This document shows, piece by piece, positions 2,644 through 64,000 of a stretch of DNA of 64,000 nucleotides. The DNA is from Pectinatus haikarae (lineage in GTDB: Bacteria > Bacillota > Negativicutes > Selenomonadales > Selenomonadaceae), in the NCBI RefSeq assembly GCF_015732185.1, contig NZ_WIQM01000015.1, positions 124,001-188,000 of the forward strand, in the 5' to 3' direction. Under the pieces are notes generated by a model. That model was given only the letters and a program-made list of their open reading frames with translations. It was not told the DNA's origin and made no database searches. Numbering within the stretch: position 1 is the first letter of the stretch; each line of letters begins with the position of its first letter. The position numbers were made by a program, and so were the translations under genes.

Positions 2644-2659
2644 CTCCCTGAAAAACAGC

Positions 2660-2696
2660 AAAAAAATAAGCCCTTCCTGAAAAGAAACGGCTTTTA
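2660..2696 (-). terminator. Riboswitch expression platform terminator, copy I
   Basis: Read on the minus strand, AAGCC pairs with GGCTT and the inner TTTC pairs with GGAA, followed by ATTTTTTT. This intrinsic terminator sits between the aptamer and the PepSY start codon. Confidence 0.85.
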
Positions 2697-2699
2697 TCT

Positions 2700-2925
2700 A
2701 TGAAGTGACCAAGATAATCTCCTCCCTATCGCTCGCAGGTAATAATGGTGATTTTCAAACAGGCAGTTCTCCTGACTCAGGTTCATTGCCCATTCGCGCC
2801 TTCCCGGAAAAAATTTCCAGTGACATCATGCGATAAGCTCCCCTTACAGTGGCGGGACCGTGCCGGCTTTTACCGGCTTCTCTATCAAGTCTTACGACAC
2901 CTGTTCAACAATATTCAGTTACAAT
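2700..2925 (-). promoter_or_regulatory. Cobalamin riboswitch, copy I
   Basis: The minus strand carries the hallmark elements of the cobalamin aptamer: the GCCACTG core element within a GGTCCCGCCACTGTAA context, the GGGAAGG segment, and the B12 box AGTCAGGAGAACTGCC (2777-2762). It lies between a good promoter and an intrinsic terminator and is followed by the PepSY gene. Adenosyl- or methyl-cobalamin binding should favour termination. Confidence 0.93.
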
Positions 2926-2929
2926 AACA

Positions 2930-2958
2930 AATATACTTTCCTTTCTTATAATTGTCAA
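2930..2958 (-). promoter_or_regulatory. Promoter of riboswitch copy I
   Basis: On the minus strand TTGACA (2958-2953) and TATATT (2935-2930) are separated by exactly 17 nt, a near-consensus sigma-70/A promoter. It would start transcription just before the cobalamin aptamer. Confidence 0.75.
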
Positions 2959-2983
2959 TAAATTACTGCAAATATGTACTAAC

Positions 2984-3274
2984 TTAAAATCTATAAAAGT
3001 ATTGTGTGGGATAATAAGCTCTATCATCAATTTTATATGCAGTCAAAATAATTTCATCAGGATATTCAATGATTAGGCCTTTTTCTTTAGGATGTGTTCT
3101 TGAAATAATAAACCTTGGCCTACTGTTAGTTTTATCAAAATGTTTTTCTTCAACCAATATCTCATAACCTAATTTCCGCTTTATATAGATAAAATATGAT
3201 TTATCACTCTGAGACTCTAACTCTATATGCATTAAAAAGAACTCATTATCCCAAATATGCTCTAGTTTCTTCAT
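2984..3274 (-). CDS. Hypothetical protein (96 aa)
   Basis: This small protein is charged and aromatic-rich and I cannot place it in a family. The ATG at 3274 has an AGGAGA site about 8 nt upstream, which supports a real gene. No membrane segment, signal peptide or cysteine motif is visible. It lies inside the segment bounded by the two riboswitch cassettes, next to a transposase remnant, and its low-GC composition resembles the surrounding accessory DNA. A cytoplasmic accessory protein is the most that can be said. Confidence 0.6.
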   Translation of the reverse strand: MKKLEHIWDNEFFLMHIELESQSDKSYFIYIKRKLGYEILVEEKHFDKTNSRPRFIISRTHPKEKGLIIEYPDEIILTAYKIDDRAYYPTQYFYRF

Positions 3275-3493
3275 ATTGCAATTTCTCCTTGTATAATAAG
3301 TTTTGTAAGCAGAAATCTGCCAACGTACAAAGCGTATTTCCTTTTTATTACATGTTGTTTAAAAAATTTTGATACTGCAATAGATATAGTAATTTTGGCA
3401 AATGTTACCTCTTTTTCCTCCTCTGGCTAAACCCTGTAGTTTTTGCTTAAAAGCTTAACAACTACCTTATACTATAGATAAAAGTTACATGAA

Positions 3494-3628
3494 ATGAAAG
3501 ATAGTAATATCTTGGACGATAAGTCATATGGCAAAATTTTTCGTAGAGTTGCTACTCACTATGAAAAGCTGGTAACATCTTTTCTTGCCTTTGTTTATTG
3601 TGCTTCCATATTCATCTTGTGCAAATAA
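3494..3628 (+). pseudogene. IS5-family transposase, C-terminal remnant
   Basis: A short open frame of 44 codons ends with F-R-R-V-A-T-H-Y-E-K-L-V-T-S-F-L-A-F-V, matching the very conserved C-terminal F-R-R-[IV]-A-T-R-Y-[DE]-K-L motif of IS5-type DDE transposases. The rest of the transposase, including the catalytic DD, is absent, and the first few codons are unrelated. It is the main content of the gap 3275-3680 and marks an old insertion in this accessory segment. Confidence 0.7.
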
Positions 3629-3680
3629 TACTCAGCATTGAATGTTTTCTTTATTTTTATGGATTTAACATATTACCAGA

Positions 3681-4773
3681 TTATTTCTTGGTCATTAAAT
3701 ATGGTTCTTCAATTCCCGTTTGATACCCACACTTATAACATTTACCGTTGGAAAGCAATGAATCTTTTACATATGTGCACAAACCATATCTTTCCACAAG
3801 CAGTTCTTTACAATTTGGGCAATAAGTATTTAACCCAATACTTTCAAAAACATTTCCAATGTATGCATATTTTAACCCACGTTTTAATGCACGCTTACGC
3901 GCTTCCATAACATCTTCAACTGGAGTTTTAGCATATTGCATATATTTGTAATCAGGATGAAACCTTGTAAAATGAATAGGGATATCCGGAGATAATTCAC
4001 TGAGAATAAAATCAATCATTTTATCGTAGTTATTAACATTGTTTGTTAGACCAGTAACCACCAAATTACTGAGTTCATAATGTATCCCGGTAGAATGTAT
4101 ATATTTGGTATTTTCCAATACGGGCAATAACCATCCCTTTGTAAATTGTTTATAATAAGCTTCGTCCATAGCTTTAATAGAAATAGCAAAAATATCAATC
4201 ACATAATTGTATTACGGCATCTCTCGATAGAAAAAACGCCGATTTAAATAGGCTTTTTATTCCGTATTTCTTCGCTTCTCGTGCAGTATCAATTACAAAT
4301 TCGAACCAAACTGCAGGATCATTATACGTCCAAGATAGTATTTTTACATTATTTTTTAAGGTTATTTCAACAATAGACTGTGTAGTGTACTCGTGAATAT
4401 ATTCTGGTTTAGTATATTGAAATTGAGAATACATCCAATTCTGACAATAATCGCAATCCAAATTGCATCCAAAATTTCCAAGTGATAATATTTGTGCTCC
4501 AGGAGCATAATTAAATAATGCCTCTGTTTCAATTTTTTCGACCGTGACATGGGCGGCCTTACCATACGACTGAGCATATAATTTTCCGTTTATATTTTTT
4601 CTCACCTTACAAAAACCAACAGAGTTAGACTGGATTACACATTTACGTGGACATAATCCACATTGAACCTTTTGATTTTGCAATTTTTCATACAAATACG
4701 CCTCTTTTCTCGTATCATTCCATTTTAAATGTAAATTATATTTTGGAGAATTTGTTGAATAGACATTACTCAT
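3681..4773 (-). pseudogene. amrS: AmrS-type radical SAM protein, broken by a small deletion
   Basis: Two adjacent minus-strand frames (4773-4195 and 4202-3681) together give one AmmeMemoRadiSam-system radical SAM protein of about 363 residues, the usual length. The first part has the N-terminal C-x2-C-x3-C zinc-like motif (C-G-L-C-P-R-K-C) and the radical SAM motif C-N-L-D-C-D-Y-C. The second part begins at D-I-F-A-I-S-I-K and ends with the usual C-P-N-C and C-Y-K-C pairs. At 4195-4202 a T-G-T-G-A-T-T-G-A-T stretch causes a stop, as expected if one copy of a GTGAT direct repeat was lost. The original start at 4773 has an AGGGAGG site. The partner amrA/amrB genes are not next to it. Function is probably lost. 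Confidence 0.8.
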
Positions 4774-4830
4774 GCTTATACCTCCCTGACAATTTCAACT
4801 TATTCAAACAATATGTAATGCTATGCTATA

Positions 4831-5439
4831 TTAATTGAATCCAGATATAATAGTAATACCAAAAGCAATTAAAATTGCACCTGCACCAATATCCAAATGT
4901 TGTACAAGCTTGATATTCAAGTGTTTTTTGATCCTCCCTCCGGCAATTGAAACTGCGCCTAAGAATATAATAGTAGCAGAAACACACCCCAATATAGTTA
5001 ACGCAATATTTATTAATCCACTGATCTTTTTTAAACTGAGCAGAGCGCCAAGCGTACTTGCCCATAAAACTATTGTAAGTGGATTAATGGATGTAAGTTT
5101 AATGCCATATAAAAAACTATTGCAGACATTTTTTTCTTTCTCCCCTATATCACTGTTTTTCTTTCTTAGCCCAGTTACAATATAAGATATTCCAAATAAA
5201 ATTAGTCCTATTGCAGCAATTATAGTGAAGATATGATTCACAGATGGTAATTGAATTAAATTAGCAACAACTCCTGCTGATAAAAGAATATAACAAAAAT
5301 CCACTAACGCAACACCAAATACCATTTTAATTGCTTCAATAGAGCCTCTTGTAATGGAGTGGTGCAGTACAGCAATAAAAACAGGCCCTATTGAAAGCTG
5401 CAGTGTAAATCCTAAAATAAGACCATCAAAAAAATCCAT
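4831..5439 (-). CDS. LysE/RhtB-family exporter
   Basis: This is a small inner-membrane exporter of the LysE superfamily, which pumps out amino acids or related solutes. The 202 residues include about six hydrophobic helices and the family hallmark near the N-terminus, G-x-x-L-G-F-T-L-Q-L-S-I-G-P-V-F, with the conserved G-P. I placed the start at ATG 5439 because GGAAAGAG lies 6-7 nt upstream; an ATG at 5457 has no such site. It is about 390 nt downstream of riboswitch copy II on the same strand, too far for ordinary leader control but possible. Substrate unknown. Confidence 0.85.
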   Translation of the reverse strand: MDFFDGLILGFTLQLSIGPVFIAVLHHSITRGSIEAIKMVFGVALVDFCYILLSAGVVANLIQLPSVNHIFTIIAAIGLILFGISYIVTGLRKKNSDIGEKEKNVCNSFLYGIKLTSINPLTIVLWASTLGALLSLKKISGLINIALTILGCVSATIIFLGAVSIAGGRIKKHLNIKLVQHLDIGAGAILIAFGITIISGFN

Positions 5440-5852
5440 GTTTAACTCTTTCCACATAATAAGTAAAGATATGCAATATTTAAAGTTTTATGTATCTCTT
5501 CTATTTTCATTATTTATTAAGTAATTGGAAATAAAATTTAGTATTTTAAACTATATCTGCCCAAATAACTCTCATTTTATGTCTTTTTCTCATAAACAAT
5601 TATTTCTTACAAAATATATGATGCTAGAAAACAATTACATAATAAAAATGATATTTTAAGAATATGCCTAGGATAACAATTTGTCAGTCGGAAACATGAC
5701 AATTTTAGATAGAAAATTATACTAGGCAGATGTTCCTATTTACTTTTTCCAATTTAGTAACTATTCTTTCTATGATATATTTTGACTTCTTTGTTTGTTA
5801 TATTCTTATTAAAATTCCAGGATCTACATTATTGGGTAATAAATTTTTCCCT
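5440..5852. other. Gene-free AT-rich region
   Basis: No credible coding frame was found here. The stretch is very AT-rich and holds one interrupted inverted repeat (5665-5728). It lies directly downstream of the terminator of riboswitch copy II, where a regulated gene would be expected but is missing. Confidence 0.6.
5665..5728. repeat. Interrupted inverted repeat
   Basis: TGCCTAGGATAA at 5665-5676 pairs with TTATACTAGGCA at 5717-5728 with one mismatch. Shorter inner arms (TTGTCA and TGACAA) could extend the hairpin. There is no U tail, so it is not a standard terminator. It could be a small mobile-element relic or a structured RNA. Confidence 0.5.
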
Positions 5853-5863
5853 TGAAAAACAGC

Positions 5864-5900
5864 AAAAAAATAAGCCCTTCCTAAAAAGAAACGGCTTTTA
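5864..5900 (-). terminator. Riboswitch expression platform terminator, copy II
   Basis: The AAGCC/GGCTT stem with inner TTTC/GGAA pairs and the T7 tail match copy I. Only the loop differs by one base. Confidence 0.8.
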
Positions 5901-5903
5901 TCT

Positions 5904-6128
5904 ATGAAGTGACCAAGATAATCTCCTCCCTATCGCTCGCAGGTAATAATGGTGATTTTCAAACAGGCAGTTCTCCTGACTCAGGTTCATTGCCCATTCG
6001 CGCCTTCCCGGAAAAAATTTCCAGTGACATCATGCGATAAGCTCCCCTTACAGTGGCGGGACCGTGCCGGCTTTTACCGGCTTCTCTATCAAGTCTTACG
6101 ACACCTGTTCAACAATATTCAGTTACAA
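5904..6128 (-). promoter_or_regulatory. Cobalamin riboswitch, copy II (no gene directly behind it)
   Basis: The aptamer core, including GCCACTG and the B12 box AGTCAGGAGAACTGCC, is the same as in copy I. The next same-strand gene, the LysE exporter, starts about 425 nt after the terminator. The cassette could be a relic, a leader with a very long untranslated region, or a B12-controlled small RNA. Confidence 0.88.
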
Positions 6129-6132
6129 TAAA

Positions 6133-6161
6133 AATATACTTTCCTTTCCTATAATTGTCAA
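6133..6161 (-). promoter_or_regulatory. Promoter of riboswitch copy II
   Basis: The hexamers TTGACA and TATATT with a 17-nt spacer are identical to those of copy I, so this copy should still be transcribed. Confidence 0.7.
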
Positions 6162-6265
6162 TGACCAGCAGTAAATATACCACGATAAATTGTATTAATT
6201 TTAATCTCAAGGGAAAAGATTCAATGGACATTAAATTATTTCCAATCTGCTTAGCTGTACCAATA

Positions 6266-6305
6266 AATATGGGAAACAAGCTTATATTTACTTGTCTCCC
6301 ATATT
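6266..6305 (-). terminator. Terminator after glpQ
   Basis: AATATGGGA and ACAAG pair with CTTGT and TCCCATATT around a loop of about 10 nt. It lies 28 nt past the glpQ stop codon. Confidence 0.65.
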
Positions 6306-6332
6306 ATTGTAAACTATTTTTCATTTGATGAA

Positions 6333-7466
6333 TCAGTAAGCCGCATCATTGCCGCCTTTTCTTTCACCGGATATTGTTTCATTATGGGCTGTCCCCGTAT
6401 GGTATGGACTTTGTACATTAACTACCGGATCATGCAATTTTATTTTGCGGTCTTCCAATACTTTTTTCAAAACCCATGGTTTGTCGGATATTATTCCATC
6501 TACACCCATATCCAGCAACATTTTTATATCGCTTTCTTTGTTCACTGTCCACGGTACTACCTTCATGCCCAGTGAATGCGCTTCCTCCACATCCTGCTTA
6601 GACAGTTCTGTAAAATACGGCGATATTATATCCATTCCGATGGCATGCGCTGCGCGCACAGGGTCACCGTTATAGTCCTTTATGTCAAGCCCTCCAAGCC
6701 AGGGCGACTTCGCTTTCTCATAACGGCGCAGTGATTCGGAATCCCGTCCCCAAGAGGGCTGCTCCTGCCATAATGCTGATGTAGTAATATTGGGGTTTAA
6801 TTTTTTCATTTCGATTAATGTCTGCCAATCGAAGGATTGGAGCACCACACGATTTTCCATACCATACTTCTTTATGATATCATTGAATACTTGAACAAAT
6901 TTTTTCGGATCGGCATTATTTTTATAGCCTATACTAGCCGGGTCAGGATAAGATTTAGTTTCTATATTAAGTATGATTTTTTTATCCCCATAGGATTGTA
7001 TAAGCTGCAGCAGCTCTTCAAGCGTGGGGATCTTGGCGTCATGCGTTATTTGTGTACGCCCGTGCAGATCATAGTATTCGCCATTCTTAGGGTCCATCAC
7101 ACCTACATCGAATTTGCGCAGTTGGTCAATTGTCATTGTACGTATGTCATATTTCCCTCCGGACACATATTTACCTGTTTCATCACGGGTTATATCAGGA
7201 TTCAGTATCGGATTATGACTCATAACTATTTGTCCATCTTTTGTGAGCTGCATATCGCATTCGATAGATGTCGCTCCCATTTCCATTGCATAAGCATAGG
7301 AATACAGCGTATTTTCCGGTCTGGCATCACGTCCGCCCCGATGCGCTTCAAAATCGAATACATCATAGGATACCTTTGCCTGTGCAGCCGGCGTATATAT
7401 TACTCCTGCACCGCAATAAAGGCTGATTGCCACAAGCCCAGTCATTATAAGTTTTTTTCTCTTCAT
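6333..7466 (-). CDS. glpQ: Secreted glycerophosphodiester phosphodiesterase
   Basis: GlpQ hydrolyses glycerophosphodiesters to an alcohol and glycerol 3-phosphate outside the cytoplasmic membrane. The start at 7466 is chosen because GGAGAG lies 9 nt upstream and because it yields a clean signal peptide (K-R-K-K, hydrophobic core, A-Q-A cleavage near residue 30). The catalytic residues of the GDPD TIM barrel are visible: H-R at 42-43, E-N-T at 51-53, E69 and D71, and H84. The 377-residue length fits GlpQ. The organophosphate antiporter gene lies about 200 nt upstream on the same strand, so the product glycerol 3-phosphate could be imported by its neighbour. Confidence 0.93.
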   Translation of the reverse strand: MKRKKLIMTGLVAISLYCGAGVIYTPAAQAKVSYDVFDFEAHRGGRDARPENTLYSYAYAMEMGATSIECDMQLTKDGQIVMSHNPILNPDITRDETGKYVSGGKYDIRTMTIDQLRKFDVGVMDPKNGEYYDLHGRTQITHDAKIPTLEELLQLIQSYGDKKIILNIETKSYPDPASIGYKNNADPKKFVQVFNDIIKKYGMENRVVLQSFDWQTLIEMKKLNPNITTSALWQEQPSWGRDSESLRRYEKAKSPWLGGLDIKDYNGDPVRAAHAIGMDIISPYFTELSKQDVEEAHSLGMKVVPWTVNKESDIKMLLDMGVDGIISDKPWVLKKVLEDRKIKLHDPVVNVQSPYHTGTAHNETISGERKGGNDAAY

Positions 7467-7667
7467 TCCTGTACGCTCTCCTTTAAACTTCAAGTATAGT
7501 ATGCTTAATCTATTCATATGCTTAATCAACTATAGCACACTGTCCACCCTTTTGTATTAATCTTAAGTAAATTCTGCATTTTATACACATATTCCCGTTA
7601 AGTTTATCCAATCGTAATCCTCCGTCCCACGCTAAAGCTGCAATATCCAGAGGAAAAAGACAACTTG

Positions 7668-9017
7668 TTAATCTTCCCTGGGTTTGGTATTCCAAACAAA
7701 AAGTGCCAGTAAGGTGGAAACAACGGCTGCACCAACCCAGAATTCTGTTGCCAAGCCAAAATCATATACTTTAACACCGTTTACGACAGAAATGGTCATC
7801 AATTTGCCCGTGACGAATTCCTGAATAGCGGCACCGGCGTAGCTCAGCAGACCAATCATCCCCATAGCAGCACCAGTAACGCGCTTCGGTACGATATCGA
7901 CGGCCATAAGGCCACCCATATAGCAAACCAATGCTCCCATAGTAAAGCCGTAGAAGGTCATGCAGAAAAGATCCATGGTGAAGGACTGGGGAGCCCATAC
8001 AAAACCAGCAATTGATAAAGAGTATAATATGCCATAAATAAGCGCCGGTGCATTCCGTTTATGATTAAAAAATTTATCGGAAATAACACCACACAGCAGT
8101 GCCCCGAAGATACCAGCCACCTGCATATATGCCATGACGCCGGCAGCTCCCATCATATCATAGCCTTTTTGAGAAGTAAGATATACAACGCCCCAGCTTT
8201 CAACGGCATATCGGGCAATATATACACAAAGAGAAGAAAATCCGAGGATCCAGACCGCCGGATTTTTGACAACGGTATTCCATTGCATAGCACCAACGGA
8301 TTTTTGTTTTTCTGCCTCTGCCTGCGCTTGCGTTTTTTCTCCATAATAAACAGCCCCATTGGGGAGGCCCTGTGTTTCCGGGCGATCACTCATGCCAAAA
8401 TAAATGAAGGCTGTACCGATTAAAGAGATACTTCCTGCAGCAATAAATCCCATGGACCAATTATAAGCAGATACAACAGCCGCAATAGCAAAGTATGCAA
8501 AGGAAGAACCTAAATTGTGGCTCGTGAACCATACACCGTACAAAGTGCCCCGCTCTTTGTTGCTGAACCACTGATTCAATGCAACGATAGATGGACCCGC
8601 GCCATAGGATTGAAACCATCCGTTTAACCCCCATAGGACTGCCAACGGAACAAACGAATTTACAAGCCCCATACCGACCATTGTCAAAGATGAAATGAAA
8701 AGACCGAATGAAAAAAACCGTTTATTGTTCATGCGGTCGGCAAGGAAACTGTTGGTAAATTTGCCCAAGCCGTAAGTAATAAAAAAAATAGAGCCAATAA
8801 TGCCTACTTGCTCAGGGGTTACAATACCGGAAGACAAAAGCGGTTTTTTGATGACCGAATAGCTCTGGCGAATGATGTAGTAAAATGCGTATCCGATCGT
8901 GATAGAGGCAAATACACGCCAACGCATGCTGTTGAATTTTTTCTTGACAGCTCCGTTTTCCTTGATTTGTTCGATATCCGGACCGGTTTTAAAAAATTGA
9001 TATAATAGATTGAACAT
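7668..9017 (-). CDS. Organophosphate:phosphate antiporter (GlpT/UhpC-like MFS)
   Basis: This 12-helix major facilitator of the OPA family exchanges an organic phosphate for inorganic phosphate. The start at 9017 has AAAGGAG exactly 7 nt upstream; earlier codons would add an unneeded 12-residue extension. The N-terminal region has the family pattern W-R-V-F-x-S-I-T-I-G-Y-x-x-Y-Y-I-I-R-Q-S, with the substrate-phosphate-binding arginine after TM1, and a second key region V-Y-I-A-R-Y-A-V-E-S-W-G. Position upstream of glpQ favours glycerol 3-phosphate, but the sequence resembles the hexose-phosphate and UhpC branch as much as GlpT, so I leave the symbol open. Confidence 0.85.
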   Translation of the reverse strand: MFNLLYQFFKTGPDIEQIKENGAVKKKFNSMRWRVFASITIGYAFYYIIRQSYSVIKKPLLSSGIVTPEQVGIIGSIFFITYGLGKFTNSFLADRMNNKRFFSFGLFISSLTMVGMGLVNSFVPLAVLWGLNGWFQSYGAGPSIVALNQWFSNKERGTLYGVWFTSHNLGSSFAYFAIAAVVSAYNWSMGFIAAGSISLIGTAFIYFGMSDRPETQGLPNGAVYYGEKTQAQAEAEKQKSVGAMQWNTVVKNPAVWILGFSSLCVYIARYAVESWGVVYLTSQKGYDMMGAAGVMAYMQVAGIFGALLCGVISDKFFNHKRNAPALIYGILYSLSIAGFVWAPQSFTMDLFCMTFYGFTMGALVCYMGGLMAVDIVPKRVTGAAMGMIGLLSYAGAAIQEFVTGKLMTISVVNGVKVYDFGLATEFWVGAAVVSTLLALFVWNTKPRED

Positions 9018-9355
9018 AAAAAAACTCCTTTCTTTTTGATGGATGAAACTCAACCTGTTCTTTTAGTTGAATCCGCTTCCACTACTGACAATGCCAGTAT
9101 AGTACATTATTTTTAACATATATAGCAGAAAAAATCTGATTTTCTTGTAAGAATTTTTCTGACATAAAGAAGCTGCCACACAGGCAATAACAGCCGTCAT
9201 AAAATGAAAAATCCCCCAGTCCATAACGGCTGACTGAGGAAACTCCTGATGTTTAATAAAATCAAGTTCATATGTTTTTTGTGCGGATCAAGCGTGTTTC
9301 CCTTACACTCATACGTTTTTTATATACAATTAAAAAACATACGAAGGCTGTTATT
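9018..9355. other. Intergenic region with small hairpins
   Basis: No gene is apparent. The stretch includes an inverted repeat around 9126-9163 (CAGAAAAA/TTTTTCTG), a CAGTC/GACTG hairpin near 9218-9240 and an ACGTTTTTT/AAAAAACATACG pair near 9313-9344. The promoter of the antiporter gene must lie in the first 100 nt, but no clear hexamers were identified. Confidence 0.5.
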
Positions 9356-9629
9356 ATGCTCATACACCATTTCAACAACAGGTACTGCATTTCCTTGCTG
9401 CTTGTTCTGATCCTTTTCTTCATCTTTTTTTAATTATTCTCGCTCTGATGCATATGATTCTTACATCGACTTTTCTAAAGGTGAACCCTTGCCCCATGAA
9501 GAAGAAGCTTCGCCCAATGTCACCATTGAAGACTGGCGGTTTTTTTCTAACTATATAGGCAAACGGCTGAGTTATGTGTTAGTTTTCCTCTATCAGATTG
9601 CAGCCCGCTTTTTTGCAAAGCGCATATAA
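9356..9629 (+). pseudogene. Small membrane-anchored protein, frameshifted in a T7 run
   Basis: An ATG at 9356 opens a hydrophobic leader (residues 11-25, I-S-L-L-L-V-L-I-L-F-F-I-F-F) that hits TAA at 9431, directly after seven T at 9425-9431. With six T the frame continues for 66 more codons to TAA at 9627-9629. That second part looks like real protein: an acidic linker with G-E-P-L-P-H-E-E-E, then I-E-D-W-R-F-F-S-N-Y-I-G and a hydrophobic C-terminal helix. The whole would be about 91 residues with two membrane segments. Its last 51 nt overlap maf convergently. I do not recognise the family. It may be phase-variable, dead or a sequencing error. Confidence 0.4.
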
Positions 9630-10145
9630 TTTATGCAGAGGCAGTCCCACTACATTTGAGTATGAACCATCTATTTTTTTTATAAAAACTGCACTTTTCC
9701 CCTGTATAGCATATGATCCCGCTTTATCCAAAGATTCTCCGCTGGCCGCATATCTTTCTATTTCTTTTTCTGTCAGGACTGCCATTTCAACTTCAGTGAC
9801 AGAAAAATCCTGCCAGTATTTATCATTATAAACCAGCGCAATCCCAGTATAAACTTGATGTGATCTGCCTGACAACTTTCGGAGCATAGAAATGGCATCA
9901 GCTTCATCGGCAGGCTTACCATATACTTCTTCGCCGATTGCCACGACGGTATCTGCTCCTATTACCCACATGTCCTTATGCGTTGCCGCTATCTGTCCGG
10001 CTTTCAATAAAGCATTCTCACATACCAGTTTCTTAGGAGAGCCTGTCTTTACCTCTTCTGTCTCAGATGGTTCGAAAATGAATTCACAGCCTATCTGTGT
10101 CAATAATTCTCTGCGCCTTGGTGATGCCGATGCCAATATTATCAT
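9579..10145 (-). CDS. maf: Maf-family nucleotide pyrophosphatase
   Basis: Maf proteins hydrolyse non-canonical or modified nucleoside triphosphates (such as dTTP/UTP or m5UTP) to monophosphates and keep the nucleotide pool clean. The N-terminal signature L-A-S-A-S-P-R-R-R-E-L-L is at residues 4-15, and the conserved I-G-A-D-T-V-V and Y-G-K-P motifs follow at about 62-77. The K-A-G-S-Y-A-I-Q-G segment near residue 140 is also typical. The 188-residue length is normal. It starts 9 nt after the pyrF stop on the same strand, so the two form an operon. Confidence 0.93.
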   Translation of the reverse strand: MIILASASPRRRELLTQIGCEFIFEPSETEEVKTGSPKKLVCENALLKAGQIAATHKDMWVIGADTVVAIGEEVYGKPADEADAISMLRKLSGRSHQVYTGIALVYNDKYWQDFSVTEVEMAVLTEKEIERYAASGESLDKAGSYAIQGKSAVFIKKIDGSYSNVVGLPLHKLYALCKKAGCNLIEEN

Positions 10146-10154
10146 AATTACCTC

Positions 10155-10874
10155 TCAACAGTCTGCTGGATTTATTTCTGCAAGTATTTGTTCCGCCGCC
10201 TTACGCGGATCATCAGCCTTATAAATAGGTCTGCCGACGACAATCTGGCTGGCCCCATTTTTCAATGCCTGCTCAGGTGTTGCAATACGGCTTTGATCAT
10301 CCGCAGTACTGCCTGTCGGCCGCACCCCAGGAGTCACGATCATAAAGTTTTTTCCGCATGCCCTTCGTATCCTTGCGGCTTCATGAGGAGATGCCACAAC
10401 ACCGTCAAGCCCTGCATCCTTAGATAAAAGCGCCAGCCGCACCGCCTGTTCATCTATAGGCATGTGCATACCGAGCCCATCCCAATCATCTCCGTCCATA
10501 CTTGTGAGTACTGTTATAGCAATCAATTTGGGAGGGTTTATTCCCATTTTATCCGCTTCTTCCCTCACCCGCTGTGCCGCTCTGCTCATCATGGTAAAAC
10601 CGCCTGAAGCATGAACATTGAAAATATCGACACCAAGCCTCATGAGCGAAACGAGACCTTCAGCCACCGTATTGGGTATATCATGCAGCTTCAGATCAAG
10701 AAATATTTTCTTGTTTTTCCCTTTCAAATATTTTATTATCTCCGGACCGACGGCATAAAAAAGCTCCATGCCAACCTTATAGAAGACGATACTGTCACCA
10801 AGCTTTTCCACCAGTTTCTCAGCTTCTGCCAGCGTCCGTACATCAAGTGCTGCGATAATTCTTTCATCCGCCAT
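10155..10874 (-). CDS. pyrF: Orotidine 5'-phosphate decarboxylase
   Basis: PyrF decarboxylates OMP to UMP, the last step of de novo pyrimidine synthesis. The start at 10874 has GGAGG 7 nt upstream and gives M-A-D-E-R-I-I-A-A-L-D, the family N-terminus; an upstream GTG/ATG would add 12 residues. The catalytic D-x-K-x-x-D array is seen in F-L-D-L-K-L-H-D-I-P-N-T-V (about residues 58-70), and the phosphate-binding end V-G-R-P-I-Y is near the C-terminus. At 239 residues it is the short bacterial form. It leads a pyrF-maf pair. Confidence 0.95.
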   Translation of the reverse strand: MADERIIAALDVRTLAEAEKLVEKLGDSIVFYKVGMELFYAVGPEIIKYLKGKNKKIFLDLKLHDIPNTVAEGLVSLMRLGVDIFNVHASGGFTMMSRAAQRVREEADKMGINPPKLIAITVLTSMDGDDWDGLGMHMPIDEQAVRLALLSKDAGLDGVVASPHEAARIRRACGKNFMIVTPGVRPTGSTADDQSRIATPEQALKNGASQIVVGRPIYKADDPRKAAEQILAEINPADC

Positions 10875-10953
10875 TGTTATACCTCCACCTATAAACTTAT
10901 ATTCTGCCATTCATTATAGCATAGACTGATAATCTTTTATATTTCCCTTCTGC

Positions 10954-11931
10954 TCATACAAGCCCCACCATGTGCTGAACAACAAGCGAAACCACCGCGA
11001 CGGCAAACCAACAGCACAACCCCAGAAAGATAGGCCGAAAACCATTTTTTACCAATAATCGAAGATTTGTGTTCAAACCGATCGCACTCATCGCCAATAT
11101 TATGCAAAATTTTCCTGTTCCTGCCAGAGTATGTGAAAACTGCGGAGAAAGAATGCCTGTTGTATTGACAACAGCCGCTGTGACAAACCATAAGATGAAC
11201 CACGGAAAAATTTTTATTATACTGAAATTTCTGTTTTTATTTCCTTTATGCATAGTTAGTGCCGCGAAAAATATACAAGCAGGAACAATCATCAATGCAC
11301 GTGTCAATTTTACAATAGTGGCATACCCTCCTGCCGCAGTACTGTAGGAATAACCTGCCGCAACCACAGAAGAAGTATCATTGATAGCTGTTCCTGCCCA
11401 CATACCGAATCCTGTATCAGACATTCCCATTGTATGTCCCAGAAACGGGAAAAGAAAAACGGCAATAACATTAAAAAGAAAAATCGTCGATATAGAAAAA
11501 GCTATATCCTTATCCTTTGCCCCTATGACAGGAGCCAGGGCAGCTATTGCTGAACCGCCGCATATGGCTGTACCCGCACCGATAAGTATAGTCGTATCAT
11601 AGTCAAGACCCAGATATTTACCTATCAGCCACGCCGTCAAAAATGCCGTCAGCAGTGTAAAAATCATTACATAAAGAGAATGTGATCCGACTTTCAGCAC
11701 ATTGAACAGGTTCATTTCAAATCCTAAAAGAATTATGGAATATTGCAGTATTTTTTTCCCTGTAAATTTTATGCCTGCTTCAAAAGATTTCGGCCGTCTG
11801 AAACCTGAGGCAAGTATTCCCAAAAGTATGCCAAAAACCGGCCCACCTATAATAGGAAACATATTCCCAAGAAAATAAGCGGGAACCGCAAAAACGAGTG
11901 CATATAAAGTTCCTTTGATATATTTCCGCAC
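10954..11931 (-). CDS. YeiH/UPF0324-family membrane transporter
   Basis: This 325-residue polytopic protein has about ten hydrophobic segments and belongs to the YeiH (PSE, Cons_hypoth698) family, annotated as putative sulfate exporters. Conserved motifs are G-A-G-T-A-I-C-G-G-S-A near residue 120 and A-G-T-A-I-N-D-T-S-S-V-V-A-A-G near residue 185. The start is GTG at 11931 with GGAGAGG 6 nt upstream. Transport of sulfate or a related sulfur compound is only a family-level guess; the nearby TauE/SafE and CHR-type transporters deal with similar anions. Confidence 0.85.
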   Translation of the reverse strand: MRKYIKGTLYALVFAVPAYFLGNMFPIIGGPVFGILLGILASGFRRPKSFEAGIKFTGKKILQYSIILLGFEMNLFNVLKVGSHSLYVMIFTLLTAFLTAWLIGKYLGLDYDTTILIGAGTAICGGSAIAALAPVIGAKDKDIAFSISTIFLFNVIAVFLFPFLGHTMGMSDTGFGMWAGTAINDTSSVVAAGYSYSTAAGGYATIVKLTRALMIVPACIFFAALTMHKGNKNRNFSIIKIFPWFILWFVTAAVVNTTGILSPQFSHTLAGTGKFCIILAMSAIGLNTNLRLLVKNGFRPIFLGLCCWFAVAVVSLVVQHMVGLV

Positions 11932-12165
11932 TATTATCCTCTCCTTCCAACTGAGGATAAGTATACCTGCCGTTCATCCATAAGTAAAATACAAATATAT
12001 TATATTTATCATAGGTAAATTAATATGGATAAAAACAACAGTGTTCCCTGAAGATAAATATGGCACAAATTTATTCATAGCTGCCAAATAAAAGCACAGT
12101 GTCGACTGGAGACTCTTCTTAAACGGCAGACTATGAATCATATCAGGCGCATTATAAGGTCTTGT

Positions 12166-13007
12166 TTAGATATTTTTCTGCTGCACGTTAAGCAGTTTTT
12201 CAATTTTTTCTTTTGTTTTTGTACCTGTTGCAGGTGTATTAATATATATTTTAAAATTATTTTCCGGTGTCAAAAAAACAGTATGTTCAAAATACAATTT
12301 TCCTATAGTCGGATGCCGAATAATTTTTTTCAATTCCTGTTCTGCGGCCACATTATGCAGCGGCCACCATTGTTGGAAGTATTTGCTCTTTGCCTGCAAA
12401 GAACCACCAAATTCCTTTAACCACTGGTCATTGATAAATTCGGCGCAGGAGACACGAAAAACAGCAAGCATTTTTTTGCCTTTGTGGGCCAATCAGGAAA
12501 TAAGCTTTGATATTTTTCGTTGGTAAACATCAGTTGGATAATATTCCTGTTAACGACATCAAGCTTATCGAAATCTACGAATACAGCGTTAGCAGCCTTG
12601 TTCCAGGCAATCACATTCCAATATTTATCCATCATAGTTGATGGCGAACAGACAAGACTGTCCAATACATTCTGAAATATAGAATGTGCTGTCTTCATGC
12701 CCGATATATTATGTCTCAAGGATGATTGCGACAATTCGAAGATATAGGCTATTTCATGAGAATTCAGCATCAATGCTCTGGCAATACTGTGCATTACTTC
12801 ATCTGAAACCTTTATGGAACGTCCCTGCTCAAGCCATGTATACCAAGTGACACTGACCCCTGCCAGCAAGGCAACTTCTTCACGCCGCAGACCCGGAGTG
12901 CGGCGCCTCGTGCTGTCCGGCAGACCGACCTGCGGCGGACGTATTTTTTCCCTGCGCGTCTTTAAGAAATTTCCTAATTCTCTGCGCTGTATTATGTTAT
13001 CATCCAT
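12166..13007 (-). pseudogene. XRE-family regulator with MmyB-like ligand domain, frameshifted in an A7 run
   Basis: The upper frame (13007-12417) holds a complete helix-turn-helix of the S-T-R-R-R-T-P-G-L-R-R-E-E-V-A-L-L-A-G-V-S type (residues 32-55) followed by the first half of an MmyB-like ligand-binding domain. The lower frame (12492-12166) holds the rest. They join at a run of seven T on the plus strand (12471-12477); with eight bases the reading A-K-K-M-L-A-V-F would be continuous and give about 275 residues, the family length. The gene is divergent from an MFS transporter, as expected for its regulator. It is truncated, phase-variable or a sequencing error. Confidence 0.78.
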
Positions 13008-13153
13008 AATAATTCCCCCTGTTATATACTAATAGAAATTATACTATGATAATTGGTCTTCTTGTAATAGGATAAAAACATTGTATAGTTATTTTTATAA
13101 AAAAACAATATATAGTGATAAATTAAAAACTACAGGAAAGCCGGGAATCTTTT

Positions 13154-14347
13154 ATGGAAAAAATATTTATACACAGCAAACAAAATTTACCGGAAGGTCA
13201 GATTCGGCTCACAAAAAGACTTATTTGGGTTATGGCGGCAGCCAGCGGTATTGTGACGGCCAATCTTTATTATATGCAGCCGTTGCTTTATCAGCTGGCC
13301 GCTGAGTATCATATCACGCAGTCAAGTGCCGCATTAACTGCAACATTGACACAGCTGGGTCTGGCGTTAGGCTTTTTTTTCATTTTACCGCTGGCCGATA
13401 TACTGGAAAGGCGCCGGCTTGTTCTGTTTGTCCTGTTTTCTTCAGGCTGTGCGCTTATGACCATATATTTTTCACCAGATTTGTATGTAACAGCTGCCGC
13501 ATCACTTTTGGTCGGATTCACTTCAGTTATAGGACAAATCCTGCTTCCTTTCGGCGCTCAATTAGCTGCGCCAAAAGAGCGAGGCAGAGTTATTGGCAGT
13601 ATTATGAGCGGAATCCTCACGGGGATATTATTATCTCGTGTGGCAAGCGGTTTTATCGCCCAAATATATAATTGGCGAACCATCTATTTCATAGCGGCAT
13701 TGATGATGCTCTGTCTTATGATAATTTTGCATCTGGAATTGCCTCGGTTTGATGCTTTATCAAAAATAACTTACAGTGAATCGCTGCGGTCTATTATTCC
13801 AATAGTCAAAAATTTTCGGGGACTGCGCAAGGCAAGTCTTATAGGTGCGATGGCATTTTGCGCATTCAGTGCATTTTGGACATCGCTCACATTTTTATTA
13901 CAGGAAAATTACCATCTGGGATCAAATTTTGCCGGTCTGTTTGGTTTAATAGGTATTGCGGGAGCTTTACTGGCTCCGATGGCAGGGAGTATTTCAGACA
14001 GAAAAGGACCAAATTTTAGTATTGGCATCAGTATATCAATTATTATTTTTTCATATATTGTATTTATTATCTGGGGCTATCATTTATGGGGATTGATCAC
14101 AGGCATCATTTTGCTGGATATCGGTGTACAGTGCTGTAATATCAGCAGCCAGACTAAAATTCAGCAATTGAGCGAAAAGGCGCGAAGCCGCATCACAGCA
14201 ATATACATGATTACTTTTTTTATTGGCGGAGCATTGGGAACGTATACAGGTGCATGGGCATTTCAACATTTCGGCTGGATCGGAACATGCATTGTCGGAC
14301 TGACATCGCAGTCTGTCGCTGTGTGTGCACACTTGTTTAAAGATTAG
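13154..14347 (+). CDS. MFS transporter (drug/metabolite efflux type)
   Basis: The 397-residue protein has 12 predicted membrane helices and the pattern of the DHA group of the major facilitator superfamily, including the loop 2-3 motif L-A-D-I-L-E-R-R-R and the TM5 region G-R-V-I-G-S-I-M-S-G-I-L-T-G-I-L-L. The L-Y-Y-M-Q-P-L-L start region is common to this subfamily. The divergently placed, frameshifted XRE/MmyB regulator is its likely controller. The substrate is unknown. The same window has a second MFS pump of this type at 49862-51073. Confidence 0.88.
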   Translation: MEKIFIHSKQNLPEGQIRLTKRLIWVMAAASGIVTANLYYMQPLLYQLAAEYHITQSSAALTATLTQLGLALGFFFILPLADILERRRLVLFVLFSSGCALMTIYFSPDLYVTAAASLLVGFTSVIGQILLPFGAQLAAPKERGRVIGSIMSGILTGILLSRVASGFIAQIYNWRTIYFIAALMMLCLMIILHLELPRFDALSKITYSESLRSIIPIVKNFRGLRKASLIGAMAFCAFSAFWTSLTFLLQENYHLGSNFAGLFGLIGIAGALLAPMAGSISDRKGPNFSIGISISIIIFSYIVFIIWGYHLWGLITGIILLDIGVQCCNISSQTKIQQLSEKARSRITAIYMITFFIGGALGTYTGAWAFQHFGWIGTCIVGLTSQSVAVCAHLFKD

Positions 14348-14575
14348 GTTTATTGCCGTTCGGCAGGCTGATATTCCGCACAAAAAAATAAACTGTCACT
14401 GCATTCTTTCAGGAGTGCAATTATCAATTTCTATTTTACTTAGATAATATAAATCTTCGGCAGCCATATAAACATGAAAGATCATCTTTTTTATGCCCCA
14501 ATATTTAATAAACTTTACGCTTAAACATTTTTGCACTATAATTGTTAACATATTGTATGAAATGAGGCAGTAAAA

Positions 14576-15049
14576 ATGTCTATTGATAACGTAAAGGCTT
14601 ATTTTTCTCAACTGGGCAGAGCAGATTCTGTCATGGAATTTCCTGTTTCAAGTGCAACCGTCGCAGAGGCAGCCAGAGCGGTGAATTGTGACGAAGCACG
14701 TATAGCAAAAACTTTATCTTTAAAATTAAATGATAAAGCCATATTGATCGTTGTTGCCGGAGACAAAAAAATTGACAATCATAAATATAAACAGTTTTTT
14801 GGTAAAAAGGCTGCTATGCTTAAAGCCGATGAAGTCGAAAATTTGACAGGGCATCCTATAGGCGGAGTATGCCCTTTTGCCGTGAAAGAAGGAATAAAAA
14901 CATATCTGGATGAATCACTTAAACGATTTTCCACTGTGTTCCCCGCATGCGGCAGTTCCAACAGTGCAATTGAACTGACAACAGCTGAGTTGGAAAAATA
15001 CTCGCATGCTGTCGGCTGGATCGATATAAGCAAAACTTCTGACCACTAA
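14576..15049 (+). CDS. YbaK/EbsC-family aminoacyl-tRNA deacylase
   Basis: Proteins of this family hydrolyse mischarged tRNA such as Cys-tRNA(Pro) in trans. The 157 residues form a single YbaK/prolyl-tRNA-synthetase editing domain. Typical elements are I-A-K-T-L-S-L-K near residue 41, the conserved D-K-K-I-D-x-x-K segment near 62, and G-G-V-C-P-F-A near 97. The C-terminal A-C-G-S-S-N-S-A-I-E-L-T is characteristic. It is a single gene followed by its own terminator. Amino-acid specificity cannot be read from the sequence. Confidence 0.88.
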   Translation: MSIDNVKAYFSQLGRADSVMEFPVSSATVAEAARAVNCDEARIAKTLSLKLNDKAILIVVAGDKKIDNHKYKQFFGKKAAMLKADEVENLTGHPIGGVCPFAVKEGIKTYLDESLKRFSTVFPACGSSNSAIELTTAELEKYSHAVGWIDISKTSDH

Positions 15050-46418: not shown

Positions 46419-46461
46419 ACCCGCCCTAAGACAAATTACTTTGTCAAGGACGAGTATATAT
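46419..46461 (-). terminator. T-box terminator hairpin
   Basis: On the minus strand ATACTCGTCCT and TGACAAA pair with TTTGTC and AGGGCGGGTAT, followed by TTTTTATTTT. It overlaps the leader's antiterminator option. Confidence 0.85.
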
Positions 46462-46718
46462 TTTCAATTACTCGCGGTGCCACCTTGCTTGGAAAAAACT
46501 TTCCCTCTCAATGCAGGATACCAACATATCCCTCACAGATAACGCCTGTGCTGCGTCACAGAATACTCGGCAGAGACTGCTCTCTTCCTTTGACTGTGCC
46601 CTCTGCGGTCCATTTAATACCCTGCGTCCTGCCATCTCTCAGCAACGATGGCTCTCTGTAAGTGCACGATGTATTTTTATCTCCGCATCAATGGTTTCTT
46701 AAGGCAGATATTTAATTT
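46419..46718 (-). promoter_or_regulatory. Trp-specific T-box leader
   Basis: On the minus strand GGTGGCACCGCG (46484-46473) is the conserved T-box sequence. Upstream lies a stem I region in which T-G-G at 46612-46610 sits in a loop context A-A-T-G-G-A-C-C, fitting a tryptophan specifier codon read by uncharged tRNA(Trp). Downstream is a terminator/antiterminator region. Uncharged tRNA should stabilise the antiterminator and turn on trpE. Confidence 0.92.
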
Positions 46719-61798: not shown

Positions 61799-62114
61799 TA
61801 ATTCAATTAAAATATGTTTATGCGATGAAGTATATTCACTATCCCAATACTTTTTTTGCAAAATATTATTAGATATCATCTATAATATGAAAAATTTATC
61901 TGTACACTGTCGTTTCTGCGACATACTTTTTATTCTAAAAATGCTATTATTATTTTGGTACATAATTTATCGCTGATCGTGATTATCTCATATACAATCA
62001 ATTATTCTACACAGTTGATCATAAAAATGAAGACTGGGCATGCGCCTGGTCTTTATTTTTTTTATTTGACGATATTATTTCACATCAAAAATTATTAAAG
62101 CAAAGGAGTAAAAA
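61799..62114. other. Intergenic region before the FMN-barrel operon
   Basis: This 316-nt AT-rich stretch has no gene I can support. It should contain the promoter of the operon starting at 62115; CATAAAAATGAAGACTGGGC...GCGCCTGGTCTTTATTTTTTTTATTT near 62021-62065 contains a hairpin (AAGACTGGGC/GCCTGGTCTT) with a T run that could be a terminator or attenuator. Confidence 0.5.
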
Positions 62115-62570
62115 ATGTTATTAAATCCAAAAGTTTACGAACTGTTAAAAAAGGAAAGCACTATAAAAATTTTATCAACCATAAATGAGAATAATCAAAT
62201 CCACACTGTAATAAAGGATTCTCTGCAGATCTGCGATGATCAGCTGCTGTATCTGGAATATCTGGAGTCATCTACTACAAATAGAAATTTGACTTTCAGT
62301 ATGTGGTTTAAAAACTCTGTTACTGTTCTTATTTTAAGCGAAAATAAAACCTCATATCAAATAAATGTCACTCCGGTAAAATGCATCGTCAGCGGCCCCG
62401 TATTTCAAAAATTTTATACTGAAACTCTGCAAAAACATAATGACACTGATCTGGCTGCTATATGGATCTTTGAACCGGATGCAGTTGTCAATGAGACTTT
62501 ATCGGTACGACAAAAAGAAGAACGTGCCCAAAGACCTTATTTTAAACATTTAGACAGACTGGCTTTATAA
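62115..62570 (+). CDS. FMN-binding split-barrel protein (pyridoxamine-oxidase-like)
   Basis: The 151-residue protein looks like a member of the pyridoxamine 5'-phosphate oxidase-like split-barrel family: an N-terminal helix, I-K-I-L-S-T-I-N-E-N-N-Q-I-H near residue 17 (the usual L-A-T-V-D-E-N-G-x-P-H position), and later strands with N-V-T-P-V-K-C-I-V-S-G-P near 84. It probably binds a flavin or related cofactor. GGAG lies before the ATG. A TTG-started radical SAM gene follows after 12 nt, so the two are one operon. Confidence 0.65.
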   Translation: MLLNPKVYELLKKESTIKILSTINENNQIHTVIKDSLQICDDQLLYLEYLESSTTNRNLTFSMWFKNSVTVLILSENKTSYQINVTPVKCIVSGPVFQKFYTETLQKHNDTDLAAIWIFEPDAVVNETLSVRQKEERAQRPYFKHLDRLAL

Positions 62571-62582
62571 GGAGAGAATATA

Positions 62583-63854
62583 TTGGTATCAATTTCATTA
62601 AAAAACAAAATCAGCACTGAATATCCTTTATCCAGTGAACTAAAAAGCCTCACTCAAAAATATGCGCAGTTTCCATATCTTATAATGTTAAAAACAGATA
62701 TCCAAAGGCGCGGCATTTATTATACTCATGAAGCTTTGAAAAAAGCCGATCCTACTGTTCATCAGTTAGCCGGTACACATATTTTCGGAACACGTGATGG
62801 TATTCTGACCCATCGGCCTGAAGCATTTATGCTGCGTGACGGCACCTCTGTTCTTACTACACCGACTCCGCTGGAGCAGAACCCTTATATAATTGATCTG
62901 AGAAATGACAAATTGACTCTTGTAGACGGACAGAACGAGCTTGAAGAAATAGAATATTGGACAAAACCCGATTTTTATGACAAAACCACAAAAAGCGGCA
63001 TACCAATGAATTTAATAGCCAGCGCCAGACCTCAGCGCATTTACATAATGCCCAACCGCTATTGTTTTTTCTGGAGCGATAAACAAAATTGTCTGTTCTG
63101 CGACATTGTTAATAACCTGCAAAAACAAAAAAAAGAACTAAGCATGCCTACACGCTTAAAGCCAGAAGATGTTGAAGAAACAATCAGTGAAGCTTTAAAA
63201 CAAAAAGGCCGTTTTACCGCAATTTGTTTGACATCCGGCTCTGATTTCAACGGTGTCAATGCTTTTGACCGTGAAACTGATTATTATATTGAAATTTTAA
63301 AAGCCGTCGGAAAAAATTTCAAAACAAAAAAATTCCCCAGTCAGTTAATTGCTACGGCTTTTAATCAGGATCAGCTTGGCAGACTTTATGAGCAGACAGG
63401 TATATTAAGCTACACTCCTGATATTGAAGTACTTAACGAGCGCTTGTTCAATTGGCTTTGTCCCGGAAAAGCTCATTGGGTGGGCTACAAAGAATGGAAA
63501 AAAAGACTTAAGGAAGCTGTTCCTATATTTGGCCGCGGTTATGTAAATACCTGCATCGTTGCTGGAATAGAACTTGCGCAGCCTTATGGATTTAAAAGCG
63601 AAGATGAAGCTTTAAAAAATGTTCTGGAAGAAGCTGAGGACCTCGCTGCAGATGGAGTCAACACTGTTTTTACCGTCTGGTCACCCCGTCCGGGCTCAAT
63701 AATAGGCAATCAAAAAAACGCTTCACTGGAATATTACATTCGATTGGCCTCGGGACTGCATGCTCTCAGGAAAAAATATAAGTTGCGTCTTGATCATGAC
63801 GATTACAGACGCTGCGGCAATCATCCTGATTCTGATCTCGCCAGGATTTTATAA
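62583..63854 (+). CDS. Radical SAM protein with a C-x8-C-x2-C motif
   Basis: The 423-residue protein reads like a radical SAM enzyme: M-P-N-R-Y-C near 156, followed by C161-x8-C170-x2-C173 (C-F-F-W-S-D-K-Q-N-C-L-F-C), unlike the usual C-x3-C-x2-C. Downstream comes a TIM-barrel-like region with I-C-L-T-S-G-S-D-F near 215, I-E-V-L-N-E near 281 and F-T-V-W-S-P-R-P-G-S near 364. The start is TTG with GGAGAG 6 nt upstream. The first 150 residues are of unknown fold. I cannot assign a reaction. It lies between an FMN-barrel gene and a SAF-domain gene. Confidence 0.8.
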   Translation: MVSISLKNKISTEYPLSSELKSLTQKYAQFPYLIMLKTDIQRRGIYYTHEALKKADPTVHQLAGTHIFGTRDGILTHRPEAFMLRDGTSVLTTPTPLEQNPYIIDLRNDKLTLVDGQNELEEIEYWTKPDFYDKTTKSGIPMNLIASARPQRIYIMPNRYCFFWSDKQNCLFCDIVNNLQKQKKELSMPTRLKPEDVEETISEALKQKGRFTAICLTSGSDFNGVNAFDRETDYYIEILKAVGKNFKTKKFPSQLIATAFNQDQLGRLYEQTGILSYTPDIEVLNERLFNWLCPGKAHWVGYKEWKKRLKEAVPIFGRGYVNTCIVAGIELAQPYGFKSEDEALKNVLEEAEDLAADGVNTVFTVWSPRPGSIIGNQKNASLEYYIRLASGLHALRKKYKLRLDHDDYRRCGNHPDSDLARIL

Positions 63855-63937
63855 ACAGCTTTTTTACAATATCCGGAAAAAATATAAATAAAACTCGCTT
63901 ATCAGGCGAATTATCAAAAATGACAGGAGATTATAAT

Positions 63938-64000
63938 ATGGCCTACCACAAATTTTTAGTTCATGAAAAAAAAGACAGTGTTGGTGTCGCAATAACCGAT
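63938..64000 (+). CDS. SAF-domain protein, UxaA/SuyA-like N-terminus (3' end beyond window)
   Basis: The final 21 codons read M-A-Y-H-K-F-L-V-H-E-K-K-D-S-V-G-V-A-I-T, the start of the SAF domain found in the small subunits of altronate/galactarate dehydratases and of (2R)-sulfolactate sulfo-lyase (F-L-V-H-x-x-x-D-x-V-G-V-A). AGGAG lies 8 nt before the ATG. The rest lies outside the window, so the exact enzyme cannot be named. It is 83 nt after the radical SAM gene and probably in the same operon. Confidence 0.7.
   Translation, partial: MAYHKFLVHEKKDSVGVAITD

Follow-up and report, generated by a model that had tools for sequence, protein, structure and literature searches.

How do strict anaerobes gain access to the sulfur of simple alkanesulfonates? 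To our knowledge there is no settled answer; only a handful of O2-independent desulfonation enzymes are known, and they act on a limited set of substrates (Xsc, IslAB, SuyAB, CuyA and the recently described Isr system). The question is raised here by an operon at the end of the 64,000-nucleotide stretch of Pectinatus haikarae DNA that we analyzed (denoted the window), in which genes for a small split-barrel protein and a radical SAM (rSAM) protein lie side by side. We propose that the two proteins probably constitute the enzymatic core of an O2-independent sulfonate desulfonation module that supplies sulfite for sulfur assimilation, an anaerobic counterpart of SsuD. The family and fold of the proteins, the conservation of the cysteines, the operon-like order and the pairing of the genes, the link to sulfonate-transporter and ssuD genes, and the independence from nearby nitrogenase-like genes were all computed directly. 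The initial annotation of the window had regarded the operon as a good candidate for an undescribed system, and we found no description of a module of this type in the open-licence literature.

Organization of the operon

The open reading frames of the split-barrel and rSAM genes were confirmed and are separated by a gap of 12 bp (Table 1). On contig C3, extended beyond the window, the apparent operon has the order FMN-type protein, rSAM, SAF subunit, GD_AH subunit, SsuA, SsuC and SsuB, with the genes from the GD_AH subunit onwards located past position 64,000. The SsuABC-type transporter, the defining third component of the module, was therefore not visible to the initial annotation, and the gene combination described there proved incomplete. 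The SsuA protein of the operon passes the cut-off of the sulfonate subfamily TIGR01728 (234.4 versus 163.5 bits) and also matches PF09084 (NMT1/THI5-like).

Table 1. Features of the operon and of another sulfonate island of P. haikarae. Positions refer to the window unless a contig is given.
Feature	Position	Strand	Remarks
Intrinsic-terminator-like hairpin	62023..62060	+	~50 bp 5' of the operon; terminator scan and fold z-score
Split-barrel gene	62115-62570	+	151 aa
rSAM gene	62583-63854	+	423 aa; TTG start, AGGAG upstream
Codons of the predicted cluster cysteines C161, C170 and C173 (CX8CX2C)	63063..63101	+	invariant in 30/30 window-type sequences
C411-G-N-H414 near the C-terminus	63813..63824	+	C and H invariant within the window-type clade
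Start of the SAF-domain subunit (UxaA/SuyA/GarD-like)	63938..64000	+	incomplete in the window; extends to C3:188231
Second sulfonate island	C1:308000-323000 (L005), 1506-14844		HDK, two NF045502 rSAMs, SsuACB, HpsG-type dehydratase

The hairpin preceding the operon is a possible leader or attenuator, a candidate role suggested by the terminator scan and by the fold z-score of -6.5 for positions 62026-62066. Pectinatus cerevisiiphilus retains both the hairpin and the preceding block of ~30 nt, and block and hairpin together occur as a single copy in the P. haikarae genome; Rfam scans of the operon leader gave no family above the gathering score. Separate regulatory elements were seen on the minus strand: two cobalamin riboswitches of 110 bits each (2745-2919 and 5949-6123), ~3.2 kb apart, and a T-box leader at window positions 46443-46700 (94.5 bits).

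The radical SAM protein belongs to a variant family

The 423-residue protein is matched over residues 34-392 by the NCBIfam model NF045502 (variant_rSAM); the score of 181.7 bits is above the cut-off of 125, and all 29 members of the homologue alignment match the same model. The protein therefore falls into a named family, on which point the initial annotation was wrong or incomplete. A fit to a characterized family, which would have spoken against its reading, did not emerge, in that we found no characterized function for NF045502, which is annotated merely 'radical SAM protein'. Similarly, the first 150 residues, described as devoid of recognized domains, are silent in Pfam, which detects no convincing domain in either the rSAM or the split-barrel protein, but from residue 34 they are covered by NF045502.

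Instead of the canonical CX3CX2C motif, the protein contains C161-x8-C170-x2-C173. This motif is atypical by the textbook standard, as had been pointed out, but it is the norm within NF045502: two rSAM paralogues at another locus of the same genome also carry CX8CX2C, which identifies the motif as a family trait and not a local oddity. Across 30 aligned window-type sequences, in which the homologues are 43-87% identical to the window rSAM, residues C161, C170, C173, C293, C411 and H414 are invariant, whereas the spacing between the first and second cysteine varies (CX8-11CX2C). Conservation of the three motif cysteines, a check suggested initially, thus extends to all 30 sequences, and on this basis the protein is predicted to bind a [4Fe-4S] cluster and to cleave SAM.

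The AF2 model of the rSAM, calculated from the 29-sequence alignment, has a pLDDT of 87.2 and resembles lipoyl synthase, HydE, NosL, BioB and NifB, with Z values of ~15 to 17.7 over ~200-250 residues; lipoyl synthase is the best structural match (VIA Z 17.7). The partial TIM-barrel fold of the superfamily is present in this predicted structure. Together with the confirmed open reading frame and the NF045502 match, it bears out the original assignment as a radical SAM protein. When the rSAM alignment was used as a profile against PDB sequences, the matches were at chance level only.

Maximum-likelihood phylogeny places the nitrogenase-linked rSAMs in a single group with full support, separate from the window-type group; the nearest named relative is P. 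cerevisiiphilus (87% identity for the rSAM). With other NF045502 members, window-type proteins share scores above the cut-off, the CX8CX2C motif common to paralogues and a similar length; they differ by forming their own clade, by their CX8-11 spacing, by a split-barrel partner and by the invariant C411 and H414. The latter two residues, which are not conserved in the nitrogenase-linked paralogues, are candidates for a second-cluster ligand or a catalytic residue. A more distant homologue with similar cysteine spacing is the MSMEG_0568 radical SAM protein of the nitrilase (Nit1C) cluster; the window rSAM scores 68.2 bits against the TIGR04043 cut-off of 303.7, and the MSMEG_0568 cluster holds nitrilase, GNAT and AIR-synthase-like genes. 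Of the two tested proteins that flank a homologue on a Streptomyces plasmid (28.6% identity), neither is a split-barrel protein, and ~370 Klebsiella plasmid records carry a distant (<60% identity) homologue of the nitrogenase-linked rSAM of P. haikarae.

A split-barrel protein and an SsuABC-type transporter accompany the radical SAM protein

The 151-residue protein is modelled as a split barrel of the PNPOx/HupZ-like type (AF2 pLDDT 91.6). Best Foldseek matches of the model are HupZ, the FMN-binding protein 3in6 and PNPOx-like proteins. As heme-binding HupZ and F420-binding proteins are among the nearest structures, the fold is one that can also bind heme or F420, which counts against a firm assignment of the cofactor. 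PF01243 is weakly matched in 8 of 24 homologues, and a profile search of PDB sequences with the split-barrel alignment returned weak HupZ matches only. Based on the model, we presume that the protein is a flavin-binding (probably FMN) redox partner of the rSAM.

A scan of the genome collection yielded 30 loci in about five phyla (Bacillota, Campylobacterota, Spirochaetota, Pseudomonadota and one member of the Geobacteraceae); many of these loci are contigs of metagenome-assembled genomes (MAGs), so absences count weakly. In 28 loci the rSAM gene has the split-barrel gene as its neighbour at a distance of 0-111 bp, and in the other two the contig ends at the rSAM, where adjacency cannot be judged; the coupling to a small flavin-type protein noted initially is therefore present in 28/28 testable loci. 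Among 150 relatives and the P. haikarae genome itself, the split-barrel profile matches only G000, G003, G107, G108 and G135, precisely those that carry a window-type rSAM, and the two genes adjoin each time; two of these five genomes belong to one genus and hence do not represent five independent events. At one MAG locus (L024, 9779-9967) the split-barrel match is limited to residues 56-116, possibly owing to a frameshift or degradation. Two or three window-type rSAM genes are found per locus in L025, L034, L039, L058 and L059, possibly for different sulfonates.

Within 6 kb of the rSAM, SsuA-, SsuC- and SsuB-type genes occur in 27, 26 and 27 of the 30 loci, respectively; L041, L044 and L046 have no SsuA or SsuC nearby, which weighs against our reading. 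The suspected link to sulfonated substrates is strengthened by this association, seen in about 27/30 loci. Genes that recur in the vicinity at some loci are metK, cysK, cysE, metA, metY, metH and a threonine-synthase-like gene, several of these names being readings from the sequence. SAM riboswitches are found in L024, L025 and L041, and metK lies near the rSAM in L025, L032 and L034, which fits a high demand for SAM. The ThrC-like neighbours in Campylobacterota were considered as cysteate synthases and rejected; threonine synthase fits better.

The module and the oxygen-dependent enzyme SsuD

SsuD (TIGR03565) is missing from 22 of the 30 carrier genomes, including that of P. haikarae, and present in eight. 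The FMN-rSAM pair adjoins ssuD in termite-gut Campylobacterota and in Paenibacillus anaericanus. The genes are co-directional in L057 (SsuD at 9651, FMN at 10813, rSAM at 11271) and L060 (5819, 6974 and 7436); L058 and L059 contain SsuD, SsuA copies, SsuC, SsuB, FMN and two rSAMs in one direction, and ssuD is divergent from the pair in L061 (P. anaericanus) and L049. Such proximity is the pattern expected of an O2-dependent and an O2-independent enzyme acting on the same substrates, for which HemF/HemN provides an analogy. The module and SsuD/SsuE have in common the transporter type, a flavin-type component and, in several genomes, neighbouring genes; SsuD, however, is a luciferase-like (PF00296) enzyme that uses O2 and FMNH2, whereas the module comprises a radical SAM enzyme and a split-barrel protein.

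Xsc is above its cut-off in 2/30 carriers only, both Rhodocyclus, and a sulfite reductase domain is found in 28/30 carrier genomes. Most carriers have no other known desulfonation enzyme among the kinds searched. Five genomes (G157, G159, G162, G167 and G175) have neither NflD, SsuD nor Xsc above cut-off; they are MAGs and possibly incomplete, so this triple absence is suggestive only.

The gene neighbourhood also bears on whether the ligand is a sulfonate to be desulfonated at all. The module could handle another sulfur compound or SsuA-type ligand (a sulfate ester, sulfinate, thioether, or thiamin or riboflavin precursor), or modify a sulfonate while leaving its C-S bond intact. Ligands of the NMT1/SsuA family, to which the PF09084 match points, do vary, and that its superfamily also includes transporters of other small molecules counts against our proposal. 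We nevertheless regard this alternative as unlikely, although it has to be reckoned with, given that SsuA passes the sulfonate subfamily cut-off, that co-location with ssuD is repeated, and that sulfur-assimilation genes are neighbours.

Relation to nitrogenase-like sulfonate systems

The closest functional analogue of the module is isrBHDK. Anaerobic isethionate use by Rhodobacter capsulatus needs a radical SAM protein, nitrogenase-like HDK and SsuCAB (isrBHDK/nflBHDK; PMC11423573), and BciD is reported as the closest Swiss-Prot protein to IsrB (PMC11423573). The two systems share O2-independent sulfonate assimilation, proposed in the case of the module, an SsuCAB transporter and a radical SAM protein, essential in R. 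capsulatus; the window locus differs in having no HDK and in having a split-barrel partner, IsrB being compared by description only. When the nitrogenase-linked rSAM of P. haikarae was used as a query, sampled alphaproteobacteria gave no strong match, a result that carries no weight for or against IsrB orthology.

The window rSAM might be an IsrB-like accessory that activates or matures a separate nitrogenase-like reductase, which would itself desulfonate, as proposed for IsrHDK and isethionate; in R. capsulatus, IsrB is essential together with IsrHDK (PMC11423573). Contig C1 of the P. haikarae genome does carry nitrogenase-like HDK genes together with two NF045502 rSAMs, SsuACB and a (2S)-3-sulfopropanediol dehydratase of the glycyl radical enzyme (GRE) type, a second sulfonate island that is a candidate isr-like locus. 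Two further loci lend this alternative some substance: L042 (Citrifermentans bremense) has a lone divergent NifH-like gene at 10332-11156, shortly downstream of the FMN-rSAM-Ssu genes, and in L032 (12854-16076) double-cubane-type ATP-dependent reductase genes adjoin the FMN-rSAM-SsuA module. No D/K partners of the NifH-like gene were seen in the L042 locus, however, and NflDK is found within 6 kb of the rSAM in none of the 30 loci. Six carrier genomes lack any NflD match, the clade of window-type rSAMs is distinct from the nitrogenase-linked proteins, and the window-type proteins have a dedicated split-barrel partner whose profile finds no match in G099 and G116, which carry solely nitrogenase-linked-type rSAMs. 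Because the module at these loci comes without nitrogenase-like D/K genes, an IsrB/NifB-type maturase is not our lead reading, and we consider it distinctly improbable.

Genomes G107, G108, G135 and G168 have 13-31 matches each to nitrogenase-like D proteins, which suggests that these enzymes are greatly expanded there. The second island of P. haikarae also holds a Crp-type regulator, a nearby metK and, with the HpsG-type dehydratase, an activase-like gene. As read from sequence, the L032 reductase pair consists of an HGD-D protein and a fusion of an acyl-CoA dehydratase activase with an HGD-D-like part, and a small ORF in the G135 sulfonate island (L016, 13430-13705) resembles an activase remnant.

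Proposed route of desulfonation

With respect to our proposal of an O2-independent desulfonation module, we infer the substrate, the C-S cleavage and the sulfite product, and likewise what the split-barrel protein does and which cofactor it carries. The SsuABC transporter, whose genes follow in the apparent operon, would import the sulfonate. A [4Fe-4S] cluster held by C161, C170 and C173 would cleave SAM to yield a 5'-deoxyadenosyl radical, which would abstract a hydrogen from the sulfonate, leading to breakage of the C-S bond and release of sulfite. Two routes are conceivable. In the first, a radical at the α-carbon would be oxidized with transfer of an electron to the flavin, and hydration would give an α-hydroxysulfonate that decomposes to an aldehyde and sulfite; in the second, a radical at the β-carbon would expel a sulfite radical, which the flavin would reduce. 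The split-barrel protein, probably containing FMN, would be a dedicated one-electron partner that either closes the radical reaction or supplies electrons to the cluster. Sulfite would then pass through sulfite reductase to cysteine and methionine synthesis.

The more specific form of the proposal, in which the rSAM itself cleaves the C-S bond of a simple alkanesulfonate with the split-barrel flavoprotein as its dedicated one-electron partner, in a system widespread among anaerobes and counterpart to SsuD, we put forward tentatively, as a little short of an even chance. A point against the proposal as a whole is that alkanesulfonates are chemically demanding; the rSAM might instead serve to mature or modify a different target. 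Radical, O2-independent cleavage of sulfonate C-S bonds started by a SAM-derived radical would be shared with IslAB and other GREs; unlike these systems, the window operon has no GRE, and the window rSAM matches no GRE activase family. If correct, the proposal would provide a function for one NF045502 clade and suggest new radical chemistry for C-S cleavage. Since its genes are named and occur in anaerobes and facultative organisms that can be cultured, the module is open to direct genetic and biochemical testing.

Dehydratase-like subunits in Pectinatus

The third open reading frame, previously read as the start of a UxaA/SuyA-like subunit, indeed encodes a SAF domain (PF08666, 33.1 bits versus a cut-off of 21), and the next protein beyond the window is of the GD_AH_second/GD_AH_C type (PF04295, PF20629). 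This two-subunit SAF plus GD_AH architecture is common to SuyAB and UxaA/GarD-type dehydratases. The galactarate dehydratase model TIGR03248 is split over the two genes, and its cut-off of 730.85 bits is not reached by either the SAF (44.6 bits) or the GD_AH part (125 bits).

Does the dehydratase belong to the system? Following the initial annotation, one could envisage an integrated pathway in which a hydroxy or sulfonated acid is converted stepwise by the rSAM and a dehydratase or sulfo-lyase of the UxaA/SuyA type, and in both Pectinatus genomes the SAF and GD_AH genes do lie close together and point the same way. A GD_AH subunit is, however, near the module in only one of the 30 public loci, that of the other Pectinatus, and was not found at the G107, G108 and G135 loci, which makes such a pathway highly improbable. 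The restriction to two Pectinatus genomes characterizes the dehydratase as a lineage-specific addition and not part of a conserved system, contrary to its inclusion in the initial annotation. In Pectinatus, the UxaAB/SuyAB-like pair would have joined the operon, possibly for a related sulfo-hydroxy acid.
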